Shown here piece by piece: positions 17,618 to 33,957 of a stretch of DNA of 43,802 nt. The DNA comes from Akkermansiaceae bacterium (GTDB lineage Bacteria; Verrucomicrobiota; Verrucomicrobiia; Verrucomicrobiales; Akkermansiaceae), in contig JARWZU010000014.1 in the NCBI GenBank assembly GCA_029866215.1, forward strand, positions 1 through 43,802. The letters are read 5' to 3'. Positions within the stretch are counted from its first letter, which is position 1, and every line of letters begins with the position of its first letter. The notes below the pieces were generated by a model, which did not search any database, was not told the origin of the DNA, and worked only from the letters and a program-made list of their open reading frames with translations. A program made the position numbers and the translations under genes.

Positions 17618-18226
17618 ATGATCACCAAACATCGTCCCATCGTTCAAAAAACCATGCTCGCTCTTGCCGTTGCCGCAGGACTTGCCTCATTCGCTGGATC
17701 TGCGAAAGCCGCAATTGTTTATAGCGATATTCCAATGAACTCAACAAACTGGGCTGGTAAGTTATGGAGCATTGGGGGTTTTACAAATATTTTTAATGTT
17801 GGAGCATATCCAGGACGTCTGGACGATATGTCAGGCATGCCAGGTATGGGGGGTGGCCAACCAGGATCTGCCTACATATATGGAGGGGGAGATACCGATG
17901 CTAAGTTTGTTGAATCAGATTTTGATGACGTTATTTCCATGGCGACTACTGGATTAAGTAGCTTTAATTCATTAGCTAATGGCAATTATTATCGTGGTTT
18001 TTCTTTCAATAATAATGGTACAACTGATTATGGGTGGCTGGCATTAAGTGTCAGCGGAGTTGGCGAATATGGAGACACAAGCGTTAACATATTATCTTAT
18101 GCTTATGATAATACTGGGTCATCAATCAAAGTTGGTCAGACCGCTGCAGTCCCTGAGCCCTCCACCTACGCCCTCTTCGGCATAGGAGTATTGGCGCTGT
18201 TTGCTCGCCGCCGGAAGGTCGCTTAA
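17618..18226 (+). CDS. PEP-CTERM sorting domain protein, AT-rich middle
   Basis: A 202-residue exported protein. Residues 1-32 are a Sec signal peptide (MLALAVAAGLASFAGSAKA core). The C-terminus is a complete PEP-CTERM signal: VPEP at about residues 178-181, a hydrophobic helix (YALFGIGVLALFA) and a basic RRRK end. Exosortase should cut there, so the protein probably ends up at the cell surface or in extracellular matrix. The passenger is rich in Gly, Ser, Asn and Tyr, with no recognised domain. The coding DNA of the passenger is much more AT-rich than the two ends. No exosortase gene is in the window. It lies 216 bases after the LytTR gene and has its own terminator. Confidence 0.88.
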   Translation: MITKHRPIVQKTMLALAVAAGLASFAGSAKAAIVYSDIPMNSTNWAGKLWSIGGFTNIFNVGAYPGRLDDMSGMPGMGGGQPGSAYIYGGGDTDAKFVESDFDDVISMATTGLSSFNSLANGNYYRGFSFNNNGTTDYGWLALSVSGVGEYGDTSVNILSYAYDNTGSSIKVGQTAAVPEPSTYALFGIGVLALFARRRKVA

Positions 18227-28223: not shown

Positions 28224-28793
28224 TTATCGGCCGAACATGTCTTTCTCAGGCACGTTGATGGCATCATTGGGTTGGACCGCAGTATCCATAAATTTGCCGC
28301 TGGATAAGTCGTAAACAACCTGTTTCCCATCACGAAATAGCGTCACTCGACGCATGCTTCCAAACTCTGTGGGGCCACCGGCGCCCTGAACCGCCTGCCA
28401 AAGTGTCAAACCCTTCGTGAAAGGCCTAGGGCCGGGCGCGCGAACCTGACCGCCGATCACAACCTTCTGCTCGTTGATCGTATTGCCGCTATTAGAAATA
28501 ACCTGGATGGTGGCGTTCGTGTAAATTCCAGCTTCTTTGTACCGCGCCTGCAATGAAAGCGCGAGGCCTTCGTTCCGCAAACCCGCAGCCTTCACCCGGC
28601 CAATGAAAGACATGTTGATAAATCCGTCTTCAGAAACTGGATAAGCACCATCGATCCGCGATTTCTCCTCTACGGGCACCCCCGAGATGGTGATCTGCAC
28701 CGCCTGCCCAGACTCGATCTGAGCCACCAGCGGAGAAACAAATCCAACCAAAGTGATAAGGAAAAAAAGAATTTTTTTGAGGTCCATGAACAT
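28224..28793 (-). CDS. polysaccharide export protein (Wza-like, SLBB domain)
   Basis: A 189-residue exported protein. A signal peptide covers about residues 1-24 (FFLITLVGFVSPLVA). Residues about 25-105 match the Poly_export domain (YPVSEDGFINMSFIGRVKAAG), and 110-185 form one SLBB-type soluble-ligand-binding beta-grasp domain (VVIGGQVRAPG to NDAINVPEKD). It is much shorter than full-length Wza (about 380 residues) and no lipobox is seen, so how it reaches or spans the outer membrane is unclear. Last gene of the export locus, 17 bases after the autokinase gene. Confidence 0.88.
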   Translation of the reverse strand: MFMDLKKILFFLITLVGFVSPLVAQIESGQAVQITISGVPVEEKSRIDGAYPVSEDGFINMSFIGRVKAAGLRNEGLALSLQARYKEAGIYTNATIQVISNSGNTINEQKVVIGGQVRAPGPRPFTKGLTLWQAVQGAGGPTEFGSMRRVTLFRDGKQVVYDLSSGKFMDTAVQPNDAINVPEKDMFGR

Positions 28794-28810: not shown

Positions 28811-30979
28811 TCAATACAGCTCCGAGGAATTGCCGTCGCGCGCAGCCACAGCTTGAGCCTTAGAAGCAACCGGCCCGACACTGATGTTTGGACCAATCTG
28901 GGATTCGGCAGGGGCATAATAAGTGTAGTAGCTGGTGTAGTACTGATACTGACTATCACTCCGCACATCGACGTTATTGAGCACTACCCCAAGGACAGTC
29001 CCCCCCACATTCTCGACAGAGGTCTTGACGCGCATCAGCATATTTCTTGGCAGTTTGCGGTGCTGAACGACAATCATGGTTAAATCAACTTCACTCGCCA
29101 AAACTGATGCATCACTGACGCCCAGAATCGGAGGACTATCCACCAACACCAGATCGAAGCGTTGCTTGACGTCTTGGATGAGCTCGGACATCCGGCGTGA
29201 ATTCAAAATCCCTGCAGCATCCGCTGGCAAAATACCAGAAGGCATAAAAAACAGGTTGTCCACTGGAGTCTGAAGAATCACATCTTCTAACATCAGATCC
29301 GTGGTGAGGTAGTTTGTCAGACCTACCGCGTTGTTGATATCAAAGAACGTATGCAACCGCGGTCTGCGTAAGTCCGCATCGATCATCAGGGTGGTGTAAC
29401 CACCCTGAGCGCAAATGTAGGCCAAGTTGACAAGCGTTGTCGATTTACCCTCACCCGCCCCACCTGAGACCACCGTGATCGAGTTATCTTCAGGGTTCTT
29501 CCGATTGAACTCAATGTTCGTTCTTAGAATCCGATATGCCTCGGAATCGGGACTAATTCCATTCTGCTTGTGAAGAATCGAAATGTCTTTAGGAATCACT
29601 GCAAGCACTGGAACTTGCAAGTAGCGCTCAACATCCTCGAGGGTTTTTACCGATGTGTCGAGGTACTCAAGGAAGAACGCAATGCCTATTCCAAAGACTA
29701 ACCCCACCACGGCACCAAGCGCGAGGTTGAGCGTGACGTTAGGGCTCACGGGGGCCTGAGAAATCAATGGTTCTTCGTGGATTACGATTCCCTCGTCAGG
29801 CATCTTGCGATTGATACTCTCGGAAATCTGCTTAAGCTTTAGATTCTGGAGTAACTGCTGATCAGTCTCAAAGTCACGCTTAGCATCCACATAGTCTTGA
29901 GCATCCAGGCCCCGCTTGATCGCCTCCTCGTGGGAATCATCCTTCATGATCTCGGCGTTTTTAAGCCGATCTGTTACCATGTCTCTCTGAGCCGCCAAGG
30001 TTTGCCTCAAGTTAACAACTCCATCGTCCAGCTGGCGCTTCATCGCCTTGATCTGATCTGCTGCGGCCAATACCGTCGGATGGTTGCCACCCAGCCCACT
30101 GATTTTAAGGGAATCCAGGTGACGAGTCACCTCAAGGTACTGAGGGTACATATTCTTGATAATGTTATCAGGAAGATCGAGGCCCGCCGCATAAACCATG
30201 AGTTGATCACTGTCATACTTCAGCAGGCTGTTGATCTGGCTCTCCAACTGCATCTTCTCTTGCTCAAGCCTGTTGAATGCCTCCAACGCAGACCGTGCGC
30301 CCTGATCCTCATCGACTCCAGACTGCCCATAAAATGAATCAGTTCCTTTATAGATAATTCCTTTAGTCCTCACAATGTTTGCAAGCACCTTGCGCCGCTC
30401 CTCCACCTTATCTTCTTGATCTCTAACGGCTTTGTTCAATTCTGCCAAGCCTTTGTCAGCCTCGCGGGTCTCAATTTCGATCCGATACGCTTTGTATGAG
30501 TTTGCGACCTCGGATGTGATATCCTTCGCATCTTCCTTATTCTCATGGCGCACACTGATGGTAATCAAATCAGTACCTCGGATGTTTTGGGTATTCACGA
30601 TTCCCTTCAGGACACGAATCACGGATTCGCGATCCATCGACCACTTATTGAGAAGCTCGAGGCTGTCAATCACCTTGTTGAGCGAGTTTGTACTCTTGAT
30701 CTTTTCAAACTCAGTTCCGAAAAACTGAGGTGTGATTTGACTCATTCGAGAGGACTGACCCAAGTCACCCGCCAGGGGTGACATTCCCGGCGACCTCGGC
30801 TTGACCTCGATTTCTGCGGTGCTTTCGTATTTCTTTGGCATTACATAAGTAATGACCGCAGCCGTCATGAAAACCAAAAGAAGGGTCAGAAGAATGATAC
30901 CGTAGCGGTTTTTAATAACCTGCCAGTAGTCAACCGCGTGAAGTGCGGCTTCATTTTGTTGGGGTGCTGAAAGACTCAT
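28811..30979 (-). CDS. polysaccharide co-polymerase with tyrosine autokinase domain (Wzc-like)
   Basis: A 722-residue inner-membrane protein. An N-terminal Wzz domain begins with helix 1 (about residues 28-48); a large coiled periplasmic region follows, with helix 2 near 412-432. The C-terminal BY-kinase domain has Walker A SGGAGEGKST (about 502-511), Walker A' TLMIDADLRRPRL and Walker B LVLVDSPPILG. A tyrosine cluster (QYQYYTSYYTYY) near residues 676-687 is the expected autophosphorylation site. The wzz and kinase parts are fused, as in proteobacterial Wzc. It should control chain length or assembly of an exopolysaccharide. The gene is less G+C-rich than its housekeeping neighbours. Confidence 0.95.
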   Translation of the reverse strand: MSLSAPQQNEAALHAVDYWQVIKNRYGIILLTLLLVFMTAAVITYVMPKKYESTAEIEVKPRSPGMSPLAGDLGQSSRMSQITPQFFGTEFEKIKSTNSLNKVIDSLELLNKWSMDRESVIRVLKGIVNTQNIRGTDLITISVRHENKEDAKDITSEVANSYKAYRIEIETREADKGLAELNKAVRDQEDKVEERRKVLANIVRTKGIIYKGTDSFYGQSGVDEDQGARSALEAFNRLEQEKMQLESQINSLLKYDSDQLMVYAAGLDLPDNIIKNMYPQYLEVTRHLDSLKISGLGGNHPTVLAAADQIKAMKRQLDDGVVNLRQTLAAQRDMVTDRLKNAEIMKDDSHEEAIKRGLDAQDYVDAKRDFETDQQLLQNLKLKQISESINRKMPDEGIVIHEEPLISQAPVSPNVTLNLALGAVVGLVFGIGIAFFLEYLDTSVKTLEDVERYLQVPVLAVIPKDISILHKQNGISPDSEAYRILRTNIEFNRKNPEDNSITVVSGGAGEGKSTTLVNLAYICAQGGYTTLMIDADLRRPRLHTFFDINNAVGLTNYLTTDLMLEDVILQTPVDNLFFMPSGILPADAAGILNSRRMSELIQDVKQRFDLVLVDSPPILGVSDASVLASEVDLTMIVVQHRKLPRNMLMRVKTSVENVGGTVLGVVLNNVDVRSDSQYQYYTSYYTYYAPAESQIGPNISVGPVASKAQAVAARDGNSSELY

Positions 30980-31105: not shown

Positions 31106-32368
31106 TCAGAAATTTACATTCAGTCCAAGACTGACACGGCTTCGGTTGTAGGTTTGCGTACGCCCAAGCGCATCGGTCAGATCCGAAACATTGTTGACGT
31201 AAGTGTATGAAAGTGAACCAGTCATGAAATCACTAAACTTCATTTTGAGCGTCACATAGGAGGAGACAAGTGTTTCGCTGAGGTCATCACTCGCAATTCC
31301 AGTATTCCTATTCACGCCTCCCATGAAGGTACCCGGCATGTAATCAAGTCCGTTGATAACAGACATCTTTGGAGAAATCGTCCATTCGTTGGTGACGCCC
31401 CAGCGAAGCATCCGGCGCTCAGCGAAGACGATGTTATTTTGGTTTAAGCTATCGGACTCAGCACTGTACCGAAGGAAGCTTTTCACATTGAAATGCTTAT
31501 TCATCCTCGCATTCAGCGATGACTCCAAATAAGGATTCGTCGTCGAGGCATCTTGTGAAGCCGTTCCAGTGGTGGTTTCGTGAAACTGAGCACCCGCTTG
31601 GGCGATCCCGATCACGGTAGGCGTGAAACGATACTCACCACCGACGGTAAGGTAATGATCCGCGATGTCCGCTCCATCTCCTTGGCTTGAGCTTTCGCCA
31701 AACCGGTAACTTGAAGTTAGCACCGACTGTTCACCCATTTGGAAGCGGAACTGATTGGAAAGCTGATATGTGTTACGATCGTTGTCTTCCGATTCCGCCT
31801 CGGGGTACTGAGTAGCACTAAGCCTGAGCCCCGTCACCGTTCCCAGTCGCTTCGTCCAGCGGTACGAAGCAGAGTTGTCGGTCGACATCGAAACATATTC
31901 CCCTTTGCCTGCATGACTTGAAGCCACACCATAGGAATAATCTGGCTCTCTCTCCCGAGAAATCATGTTGTAACTTGAGAGCGTCAACTGATCATTCAGC
32001 TTGTGCGTCAGGCTTGCGCTGAGGTTCGACTGATTCGACAAATCATCGATAGGAGTGCCTTCGACCGATGGGGCGTCTGGGAAATAAATGACCCCGAGCA
32101 TGCCGGAAACGTTCCAAGTGGTTTGACCCGAACTCTGAACGACGCTAAGCCCAACGTAAGGATTGTAGGAGAGCGCGCTTTCTTTGAGGCCATCTTCCGA
32201 GTTTCCGGATGACACGTTGTCGTCGTAGATCGCATTGAGTCCAGCATTCCATTTGAATGGAAGCGGAGTATCTTCGAGAGCCTTGTTGGACGCTTGGTAC
32301 AAGCCCTGCCCTGAAACTGACCCAACGAAAAGTGAGCTAGTGAAAAGAAGAAGTAAGTGATTTTTCAT
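31106..32368 (-). CDS. outer-membrane beta-barrel protein of the export locus
   Basis: A 420-residue protein with a signal peptide (MKNHLLLLFTSSLFVGSVSG). The mature part is a long series of short amphipathic strands with Asn/Ser/Thr-rich turns, and the last residue is Phe after alternating hydrophobics (SLGLNVNF), the usual outer-membrane barrel insertion signal. It resembles the large barrel proteins found in exosortase/PEP-CTERM-linked exopolysaccharide loci, but I cannot name a family. It may be the outer-membrane exit pore, which would fit the short Wza-like protein. Confidence 0.8.
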   Translation of the reverse strand: MKNHLLLLFTSSLFVGSVSGQGLYQASNKALEDTPLPFKWNAGLNAIYDDNVSSGNSEDGLKESALSYNPYVGLSVVQSSGQTTWNVSGMLGVIYFPDAPSVEGTPIDDLSNQSNLSASLTHKLNDQLTLSSYNMISREREPDYSYGVASSHAGKGEYVSMSTDNSASYRWTKRLGTVTGLRLSATQYPEAESEDNDRNTYQLSNQFRFQMGEQSVLTSSYRFGESSSQGDGADIADHYLTVGGEYRFTPTVIGIAQAGAQFHETTTGTASQDASTTNPYLESSLNARMNKHFNVKSFLRYSAESDSLNQNNIVFAERRMLRWGVTNEWTISPKMSVINGLDYMPGTFMGGVNRNTGIASDDLSETLVSSYVTLKMKFSDFMTGSLSYTYVNNVSDLTDALGRTQTYNRSRVSLGLNVNF

Positions 32369-32405: not shown

Positions 32406-33830
32406 TTATCCGTTGACCGCAGTGGTAGGCGGAGGATCGACAACGCCGTCGTTGTCGCCATTATTGCCCACCTGAGTGCCCTCAGCTGAGGCTGCAGCGA
32501 TCAGCGCTGCTGCATCAGCGGCCGCCTGGTCGGCTGCCGCTCGTGCTGCCGCCGCCGCCTCTGCTGCGGTTGCACCTGCCGCGATGGCATCGGCCTCTGC
32601 TTGTGCAGCGGCTTCACTTGCAACAGTGTTCGATGCAGAACTCGAGACTCCTGAGGCGATCGCTGCCGCATTTGGCTCATCCGCAGTTGCAGCGGTAACC
32701 CCTGCAACGATGTAATAAACTTGGGTGTTGTCGGCGCCAGCACTGGAAATTGCAGCTGATGTAATCTCCGATGCTTGGGAAGGTGCCGCGTCAGCTGCTG
32801 CAGATGCTACCGCAGCTGCCTGTGTTGGGGCAGATTCAACCACCGCCGCCGTAATCACTGACGCTTGAGCGTCCGACGAATTATCGATAGCCGCTGTGGT
32901 GATCGCTGCAGCCTGTGCGGGGGCAGCTTCCGTCGCGGCAGATGCGATACTTGCAGCCTGTTCGGGGGCAGCACCCGTGGCTGCTGCCGTGATCGCCGCA
33001 GCTTGCCCGTCAGAGGAGTTACTGATCGCTGCTGAAGTGTACTTAACGGCACTCTCTGGATCCGCTTTTACTGCCTGCGTCACCAATTCGGCCAACGCCT
33101 CTGGAGTAATAGTGTTGTCAATGAGTTGAACCTGCGGGGTCACAACCGCGGCACCATTGCCCCCTAGGGCATCACCCGCTTCAGCCGTAGCGTTTGGAGA
33201 AGCGACCATGGTGGCCGCCTGCGAAACAACGGCCGTTTGAATCGCGGTCATCGCAGCCGGAGCAGCTTCGACGGCCGCTGCTTGAATCACGGTGGCTTGT
33301 GAAGGCGCCGCCGCCACCGCGGCCACTGCCACCGCCACCGCAACGTCAGAACTTTTCCCTTCGCCGATGGCCGCTGTGACGATCGCCGCTGCATCTGCGG
33401 GTTGCGCAGAGACCGCGGCGGTCACCACGGCAACCACCTGAGCGGAGCTACTTCCGTCCCCGACTGCAGCTTTGACAATGCTCGTCGTCATCGAGGGCTG
33501 TGAGGCCACCGCTGCGGTGACCACCGCAGCGGAAACTGTAGGAGAGTTCCCACCACCACTCACGGCAGCCGTGACGATGGCTGACACCGATTCAACTCCG
33601 CCGCCAGATGCTGCGATCGCTGCGGTGACAATTTCTGCAGCGGCACCCGGATTCGCCCTGACTGCTGCAGCGAGGAGCGCCATCGCAGCCGCTTTTTCCG
33701 CTGGGGTCTTCGCAGCCTTAACCGCCGTGCTGACCGAGCTCGCCGTGGGGGTGGATGTTGCCGTTTGACCGCTGGCAGTGGCCAAGCCAAGAGCCGCAGT
33801 TACAAGGATGAGTGAAACGTTTTTTTTCAT
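32406..33830 (-). CDS. secreted alanine-rich helical-repeat protein
   Basis: A 474-residue protein from the ATG at 33830; the frame reaches 33851 but this start gives a clean signal peptide (MKKNVSLILVTAALGLATASG). Nearly half the residues are Ala. About twenty units of 14-18 residues follow the pattern P-x-x-A-x-x-I-V-T-A-A-V/I-x-x-x. A break of about 50 residues near position 215-265 separates two blocks of repeats. The end is a long Ala/Glu helix-like stretch, then an acidic Pro-rich tail. No known family is recognised. It is the first gene of the export locus, 37 bases before the barrel gene, so a structural or matrix role is a reasonable guess. Confidence 0.8.
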   Translation of the reverse strand: MKKNVSLILVTAALGLATASGQTATSTPTASSVSTAVKAAKTPAEKAAAMALLAAAVRANPGAAAEIVTAAIAASGGGVESVSAIVTAAVSGGGNSPTVSAAVVTAAVASQPSMTTSIVKAAVGDGSSSAQVVAVVTAAVSAQPADAAAIVTAAIGEGKSSDVAVAVAVAAVAAAPSQATVIQAAAVEAAPAAMTAIQTAVVSQAATMVASPNATAEAGDALGGNGAAVVTPQVQLIDNTITPEALAELVTQAVKADPESAVKYTSAAISNSSDGQAAAITAAATGAAPEQAASIASAATEAAPAQAAAITTAAIDNSSDAQASVITAAVVESAPTQAAAVASAAADAAPSQASEITSAAISSAGADNTQVYYIVAGVTAATADEPNAAAIASGVSSSASNTVASEAAAQAEADAIAAGATAAEAAAAARAAADQAAADAAALIAAASAEGTQVGNNGDNDGVVDPPPTTAVNG

Positions 33831-33883
33831 TTGATTTGGTGTTTGTACCATCTGATTTTAGGGGGGGTTACTGAAATTGTGAT

Positions 33884-33957
33884 TGGAGCGGGCAGCGGGA
33901 ATCGAACCCGCATGTCTAACTTGGAAGGATAGCGCTTTACCACTAAGCTATGCCCGC
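33884..33957 (-). tRNA. tRNA-Gly (anticodon TCC)
   Basis: On the minus strand the sequence folds as a full cloverleaf: 7-bp acceptor stem (33951-33957 with 33888-33894), D-arm with AGTGGTAA, anticodon loop CTTCCAA with TCC at positions 34-36, and a T-arm with GGTTCGATTCC. The 3' CCA is encoded at 33884-33886. The acceptor and T-arm match E. coli tRNA-Gly(UCC). The anticodon stem has one T-T mismatch. It would read GGA and GGG. Confidence 0.95.

Follow-up and report, generated by a model that had tools for sequence, protein, structure and literature searches.

Our analysis suggests that the helical-repeat protein encoded at positions 32406–33830 of the window (the whole stretch of DNA analysed, 43,802 nucleotides, which is one entire contig of a 3.0 Mb genome) is an undescribed accessory part of a sugar-polymer export machine. 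Judged by profile comparison, the protein is an expanded, cysteine-free relative of a widespread four-cysteine protein, and its gene heads an operon whose genes are, as far as sequence can tell, those of a composite OPX/beta-barrel polysaccharide translocon. It is followed on the same strand by genes for a beta-barrel, then a Wzz/Wzc-type kinase and last a short OPX protein, in agreement with the original prediction, which had placed it first before an outer-membrane barrel, a Wzc-like and a Wza-like gene. The operon and its surroundings comprise the following features.

33884..33957, minus strand: tRNA-Gly(TCC), directly upstream of the operon
32406..33830, minus strand: gene of the helical-repeat protein, 474 aa (open reading frame; second open start at 33851)
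31106..32368, minus strand: gene of the putative outer-membrane beta-barrel, 420 aa (family members match Pfam BBP2_2)
28811..30979, minus strand: gene of the Wzc-type co-polymerase/tyrosine autokinase, 722 aa (Wzz, GNVR, P-loop, 8 Tyr in the last 45 residues)
28224..28793, minus strand: gene of the short OPX (Wza-like) protein, 189 aa (Poly_export and SLBB; no Cys for lipidation)

Pfam BBP2_2 was matched at E ≤ 0.1 by 22 of 23 aligned barrel members, the best at 4.4e-14. The window's own barrel had no Pfam match at E ≤ 0.1 (OMP_b-brl appeared at E 0.6), is 38–45% identical to several aligned members and ends in Phe; its AlphaFold prediction from three rows reached a pLDDT of 24.3. The Wzc-type protein scored 32.9 bits for Wzz and 176.3 bits for tyrosine autokinase TIGR01007, with about 370 residues separating its two membrane segments. 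Composite-translocon OPX proteins were defined here by a length of at most 280 aa, Poly_export plus SLBB and the lack of a C-terminal membrane helix, and the 189-residue protein of the window showed this combination (Poly_export 37.2 bits, cut-off 28; SLBB 30.7 bits, cut-off 27; C-terminal hydrophobic helix absent by eye). A second Poly_export gene lies outside the operon in the same genome (G000:C3:14376-14588). In several relatives, a tRNA-like open reading frame (..VVKRYPSKLDMRVRFPLPAP..) precedes or joins the gene of the helical protein. From this recurrence, the junction between tRNA and operon looks old.

The product of the first gene is built from a signal peptide, two blocks of short helices, a long alanine-rich segment and a short tail, which map to the DNA as follows.

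33765..33830, minus strand: signal peptide, about residues 1–22 (by eye; aligned to the N-terminal end of the 51-relative profile)
33201..33704, minus strand: first block, 10 short helices, residues 43–210 (AlphaFold model; aligns with the four-cysteine core)
33105..33200, minus strand: inter-block stretch, mostly of low confidence, residues 211–242 (AlphaFold model)
32688..33104, minus strand: second block, 9 short helices, residues 243–381 (AlphaFold model; about four units absent in L019)
32463..32669, minus strand: two long Ala-rich helices, residues 388–456 (AlphaFold model and composition)
32409..32462, minus strand: tail with the end VDPPPTTAVNG, like the PPxVTxVNP-type tails of relatives (alignment and listing)

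The open reading frame claimed at 32406–33830 is present on the minus strand, where the ATG at 33830 begins 474 aa; the relatives L083 and L084 share its MKKN start, and the plus-strand reading of the same interval contains 10 stops. The N-terminus looks signal-like by eye and no Cys was counted, both as had been claimed. Alanine, put beforehand at nearly half of the residues, accounts for 33.8% of the whole chain and 34.5% of the mature chain, reaching 51% only in residues 388–456. The tail had been described as acidic and Pro-rich; it is indeed Pro-rich and short, whereas the acidity (36 D+E, 9 K+R) is distributed along the chain and not confined to it. Aromatic FWYH residues make up 0.7% of the mature chain, the median across the cores of 51 relatives being 0.9%. 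A regular expression recovered 19 repeat units, and the periodicity exceeded that expected from composition (lag-15 identity, z 4.4; lag-32, z 3.4; 500 shuffles, in which the 95% level for the best lag was z 3.18). The repeat array is almost invisible in the DNA: the window gene contained no direct-repeat family of at least 24 bases, and TRF returned four low-scoring rows, the best being a 45-bp unit in 2.3 copies.

Structural modeling of the window protein with AlphaFold from a three-row alignment yielded five models with pLDDT from 80.5 to 49.7 (the second, 76.9), the best of which was confident over most of the chain (pTM 0.73) and of low confidence at residues 1–25, 214–238 and 453–474. 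Short helices were predicted at residues 43–210 (10) and 243–381 (9) and long ones at 388–417 and 422–456, in line with the claimed 14–18-residue units in two blocks; the interval between the blocks, claimed to be about 50 residues, came to about 32 (211–242). The model would describe a solenoid-like chain with one helix per unit, matching the thin solenoid that had been offered. Foldseek against the PDB found nothing at E ≤ 0.001 with this model. The best VIA-align match was a designed repeat protein (8cws_A; Z 14.1; rmsd 4.2; 265 aligned), followed by a second designed repeat protein (Z 13.0) and by PP2A and importin-alpha chains of the HEAT/ARM type (Z about 6–8); Z values of this level are common among helical repeats, so kinship is not implied.

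The view that no named family has this pattern held in searches of Pfam, NCBIfam and the PDB. No Pfam family matched the window protein at E ≤ 1, so there was no TPR match, and no NCBIfam family did at E ≤ 1, a PEP-CTERM/exosortase-type end being absent from its tail; PADLOC and PDB sequence searches likewise returned no family. A few relatives tried against Pfam, NCBIfam, PADLOC and the PDB gave matches far below the cut-offs only. No relatives were found in the viral contigs searched, and the search of assembled-genome contigs returned three loci from two close MAGs. As a single query, the window protein matched 13 of 59 genomes, one of them its own; because the family is hidden from single-sequence search, the gene upstream of each barrel was read instead. 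Elsewhere in the window, positions 17618–18226 encode a secreted protein with the end VPEPSTYALFGIGVLALFARRRKVA, PEP-CTERM-like by eye, and an exosortase match lies elsewhere in the genome, at G000:C4:169927-170646.

Eighty barrel loci were fetched and the upstream gene was read in each, the open reading frames being chosen by a composition score with some loci corrected by hand. Nine loci with an absent or different upstream gene were dropped (L134, L142–L145, L149, L150, L157 and L159), three were kept though incomplete-looking (L082, L089 and L102), and with the window 72 proteins of about 144 to 474 aa were compared. The usual relative at this spot is secreted and typically about 180–220 aa long; its helices are similar, it contains four Cys, and its tail is PPxVTxVNP-like. 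Beyond residue 20, 42 of the 72 proteins have exactly four Cys and 16 have none; the window protein is an atypical member of a family in which four are typical. The consensus of the 51 Cys-bearing proteins runs from a signal peptide through DC, CaCEiVKAAI, VaaIVetA, QCAvAvAPDAl and NPLDFPG to a Pro/Gly tail, and two of the four Cys make a CxC that is nearly invariant over 26 aligned members.

The first block of the window protein aligns with the four-cysteine core. Profiles of the 51 Cys-bearing relatives, taken without signal peptides, matched the window protein at E 2.7e-7 (mature) and 1.8e-9 (core), the best among 1050 shuffles being E 3.0 and 5.7, respectively, and none of the 72 reversed proteins matched the mature profile at E ≤ 10. 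With signal peptides included, the A3 profile (26 members, mostly four-cysteine forms, one of them unlinked to a barrel) found the window protein in its own genome at 2.4e-10, and a profile–profile comparison gave 99.8%. The mature profile also reached 16 of the 21 Cys-poor upstream proteins below E 0.01; the other five were L138 (0.38), L139 (1.0) and L082, L135 and L140 (no match up to 10). A regular expression for the tail matched 48 of the 72 proteins, yet 31% of shuffled tails as well, so it is the alignments that carry the tail similarity. Variants were also seen at the same position. Two four-cysteine members of 281 aa (L109:5503-6345 and L115:2907-3749) have an insertion of about 100 residues before the NPLNFPG tail, located after the helical core and resembling a separate small domain. 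In L134 (genome G084, which has two weak family matches), a 1151-aa frame of Thr-rich, Ig-like-looking repeats replaces the helical protein and shares about 37 bases with the start of the barrel gene.

The barrel was found in 90 of 118 genomes, including the window's own. The A3 profile matched 172 of 239 genomes of the order and, in a sample of the phylum, 16 of 288 genomes, all 16 within the order. Among the matches listed, the family gene lay directly upstream of the barrel on the same strand in 115 of the 126 genomes with both, at a median gap of 107 bp between the two matches, in counts that rest on at least 151 and at least 150 match places. Across the 239 genomes, 144 had both, 28 the family only, 28 the barrel only and 39 neither (Fisher p = 5e-10, a statistic that ignores relatedness). 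The predicted tie of the homologues to export loci was recovered, whereas the expectation that they would always stand beside Wzc/Wza failed, as 34 of 151 family matches did not adjoin a listed barrel among the matches listed, a few at contig ends and others by unrelated genes. Genus code g24, which includes Akkermansia muciniphila, accounted for 22 of the 28 barrel-only genomes. Among the remaining six, G081 has a member that the profile missed, in G105, G114 and G193 the barrel is found at the start of a contig, and G171 and G292 bear a barrel with no member detected and without such an explanation. There are also genomes, such as G038, G100 and G103, in which no such gene precedes the barrel and a copy is located elsewhere. 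Twenty stretches around unlinked members, compared by blastp with the window's own proteins, yielded no barrel and no OPX protein and one faint Wzc-like match. Given the dispersed copies and the 28 family-only genomes, the domain is not used only at the export operon. Unlinked members of about 300–365 aa (L192–L199) carry an additional N-terminal segment before the Cys-bearing core, most of them with a similar Pro-rich end.

Gene order, the linkage in 115/126 genomes and the 144 joint genomes were counted for an export accessory, and the reading that we tentatively put first is a dedicated envelope accessory of the composite OPX/beta-barrel polysaccharide export machine in this order, perhaps acting as a periplasmic scaffold or spacer. 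In its usual form, the protein would be a small helical bundle, with five or six short helices (counted by eye), almost no aromatic residues in them and four Cys, probably forming two disulphides; a flexible tail rich in Pro and Gly, whose end recurs, would follow. In several lineages, that of the window among them, the Cys would have been lost and the helical unit multiplied into a predicted long, thin alpha-solenoid. The most likely location would be the periplasm or the inner face of the outer membrane, where the protein may serve passively to link the short OPX protein or Wzc to the barrel, much like the TPR proteins of synthase-dependent export. The FWYH content of 0.7% favours a spacer over a sugar-binding surface, and the length range of the family makes a strict molecular ruler unlikely. 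In the literature, short OPX proteins are said to leave the periplasmic distance unexplained, which is called a dilemma (PMC9603273), and synthase pathways to use a TPR protein together with a barrel (PMC9601211); the proposal that a long co-polymerase spans the gap by itself (PMC9601211) counts against an accessory scaffold. Also weighing against the leading reading are the dispersed copies, the 28 family-only genomes, the barrels of G171 and G292, the first protein of the g24 loci described below and the five Cys-poor proteins that the mature profile did not reach below E 0.01. A conserved extra gene heading short-OPX operons provides a concrete candidate for the question of how the periplasm is crossed.

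Comparison of close relatives bears on two other explanations. L019, the nearest relative of the window gene, lacks 64 residues, about four units, of block 2, which bears out the predicted change of repeat number between close relatives. Differences between the window gene and that of L019 fall 34/26/127 by codon position, and the changed codons are 101 synonymous and 61 non-synonymous; this third-position and synonymous excess indicates selection on the protein. Non-synonymous codons numbered 61/408 in the helical protein, 43/420 in the barrel and 7/722 in Wzc. Such fast change, together with a very simple composition, could be expected of a secreted, low-complexity protein that is under loose selection, lacks a specific export role and is retained by operon structure, but the synonymous excess, the conservation of Cys and tail over the order, and the co-occurrence and linkage make this highly improbable. 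The main rival to a periplasmic accessory is a matrix or surface protein that is exported or displayed alongside the polysaccharide and lends the matrix stiffness or anchorage, its repeat number tuning its reach, as in other surface repeat proteins. Secretion, faster evolution than the neighbouring genes, differing repeat number, the Ala-rich composition, the large repetitive frame at this spot in G084 and the dispersed copies are all consistent with such a role. We consider it possible but rather unlikely, as there is no lipid-anchor Cys and no PEP-CTERM or other sorting domain in the NCBIfam/Pfam matches, the four-cysteine form is a small protein, conserved across several families of the order, and the gene stands first in the operon.

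To describe the history of the Cys and of the repeats, labels were placed on a Wzc and barrel tree made by a quick method (73 rows, 65 labelled). The Cys label required eight changes by count, and nine by CxC motif, seven of them forced by starred branches, against about 16–17 for shuffled labels, and the high-Ala label five at thresholds of 25, 28 and 30% and six at 22%. High-Ala arrays occurred in four separate places (window/L083/L084; L132; L099 and L130; L133/L135/L139/L140), and all ten have 0 or 1 Cys; L110, L120 and L124 are Cys-poor yet not expanded. In L119 (283 aa), three Cys lie within repeat units (ACKSAP etc.), away from the usual places, and the count stays at eight after relabelling. 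Long Cys-poor arrays probably arose repeatedly, and loss of Cys before expansion fits, the parsimony counts being blind to gain versus loss; we infer that expansion is the derived state. The scattered four-cysteine and long Cys-poor forms make up a natural series on the origin of helical-repeat proteins. The same tree weighs on the idea that the protein acts in the periplasm as a chaperone of the barrel or OPX protein or helps it to mature, with a CxC that is redox-active or structural and with Cys that later became dispensable. Near-invariance of the CxC in the 26 aligned members, a gene directly before the barrel and the presence of a member even where unlinked to it (e.g., G038, G100 and G103) point in this direction. 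Absence of the CxC from 20 of the 65 labelled rows, with its nine changes, argues that a redox function is not essential throughout, and the repeat expansion would be unexpected, leaving this idea improbable.

The barrel-only genus was considered separately. Four g24 genomes have a secreted Ala-rich (20–22%) protein of 224–225 aa before the barrel and Wzc after it; in the two whose loci were read further, Wzc is followed by an OPX frame of 209 codons. The Wzc frame of G131 has 735 aa from its Met with a G9 tract, and the other OPX gene of this genome (Poly_export at 2526857–2527144) lies inside the published amuc_2077 coordinates; on these grounds, the locus was identified as amuc_1411–amuc_1414. 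Matching G9-tract Wzc features are described for Amuc_1413 (PMC13055324). By gene order only, the first gene of the g24 locus is Amuc_1411. The G9 tract was noted in the Wzc frame of L186, in one Akkermansia genome, the other three g24 loci having no G/C run of at least 8. A literature search for Amuc_1411 returned PMC13343947 only, which calls amuc_1411–amuc_1414 a predicted exopolysaccharide biosynthesis locus. Mucin binding is described as strongly reduced in strains whose Wzc-like Amuc_1413 is truncated (PMC13055324), which makes this type of export locus relevant in Akkermansia too.

The Akkermansia locus amuc_1411–amuc_1414 (PMC13343947, PMC13055324) shares with the window the order of a secreted Ala-rich protein (224 aa), barrel, Wzc and short OPX protein, whereas for its first protein HMM searches detected no kinship to the family and hhalign gave probabilities of 1.3% and 24.8%. 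Designed tandem-repeat proteins and HEAT/ARM solenoids resemble the window protein in fold only, as regular helical repeats, and the window model differs from them in having no Foldseek match at E ≤ 0.001. The TPR is a 34-residue, two-helix repeat, whereas the window units have 14–18 residues and one helix, are almost aromatic-free and gave no TPR match at E ≤ 1. With the AlgK/PgaA/BcsC-type TPR scaffolds (PMC9734138, PMC9601211), the window has in common a helical repeat protein and an export barrel, an analogy of role only. The string 'Verrucomicrobi' does not occur in the main texts of PMC9601211 and PMC9603273, nor 'accessory' in the main text of PMC9601211. The systems described there, EpsX/EpsY with EpsV of Myxococcus xanthus and VpsM/VpsN (PMC9601211, PMC9603273), share with the window a short OPX protein without an outer-membrane helix, a coupled barrel gene and a Wzz/Wzc-type co-polymerase, and the window operon differs from them by an extra secreted helical protein placed first.
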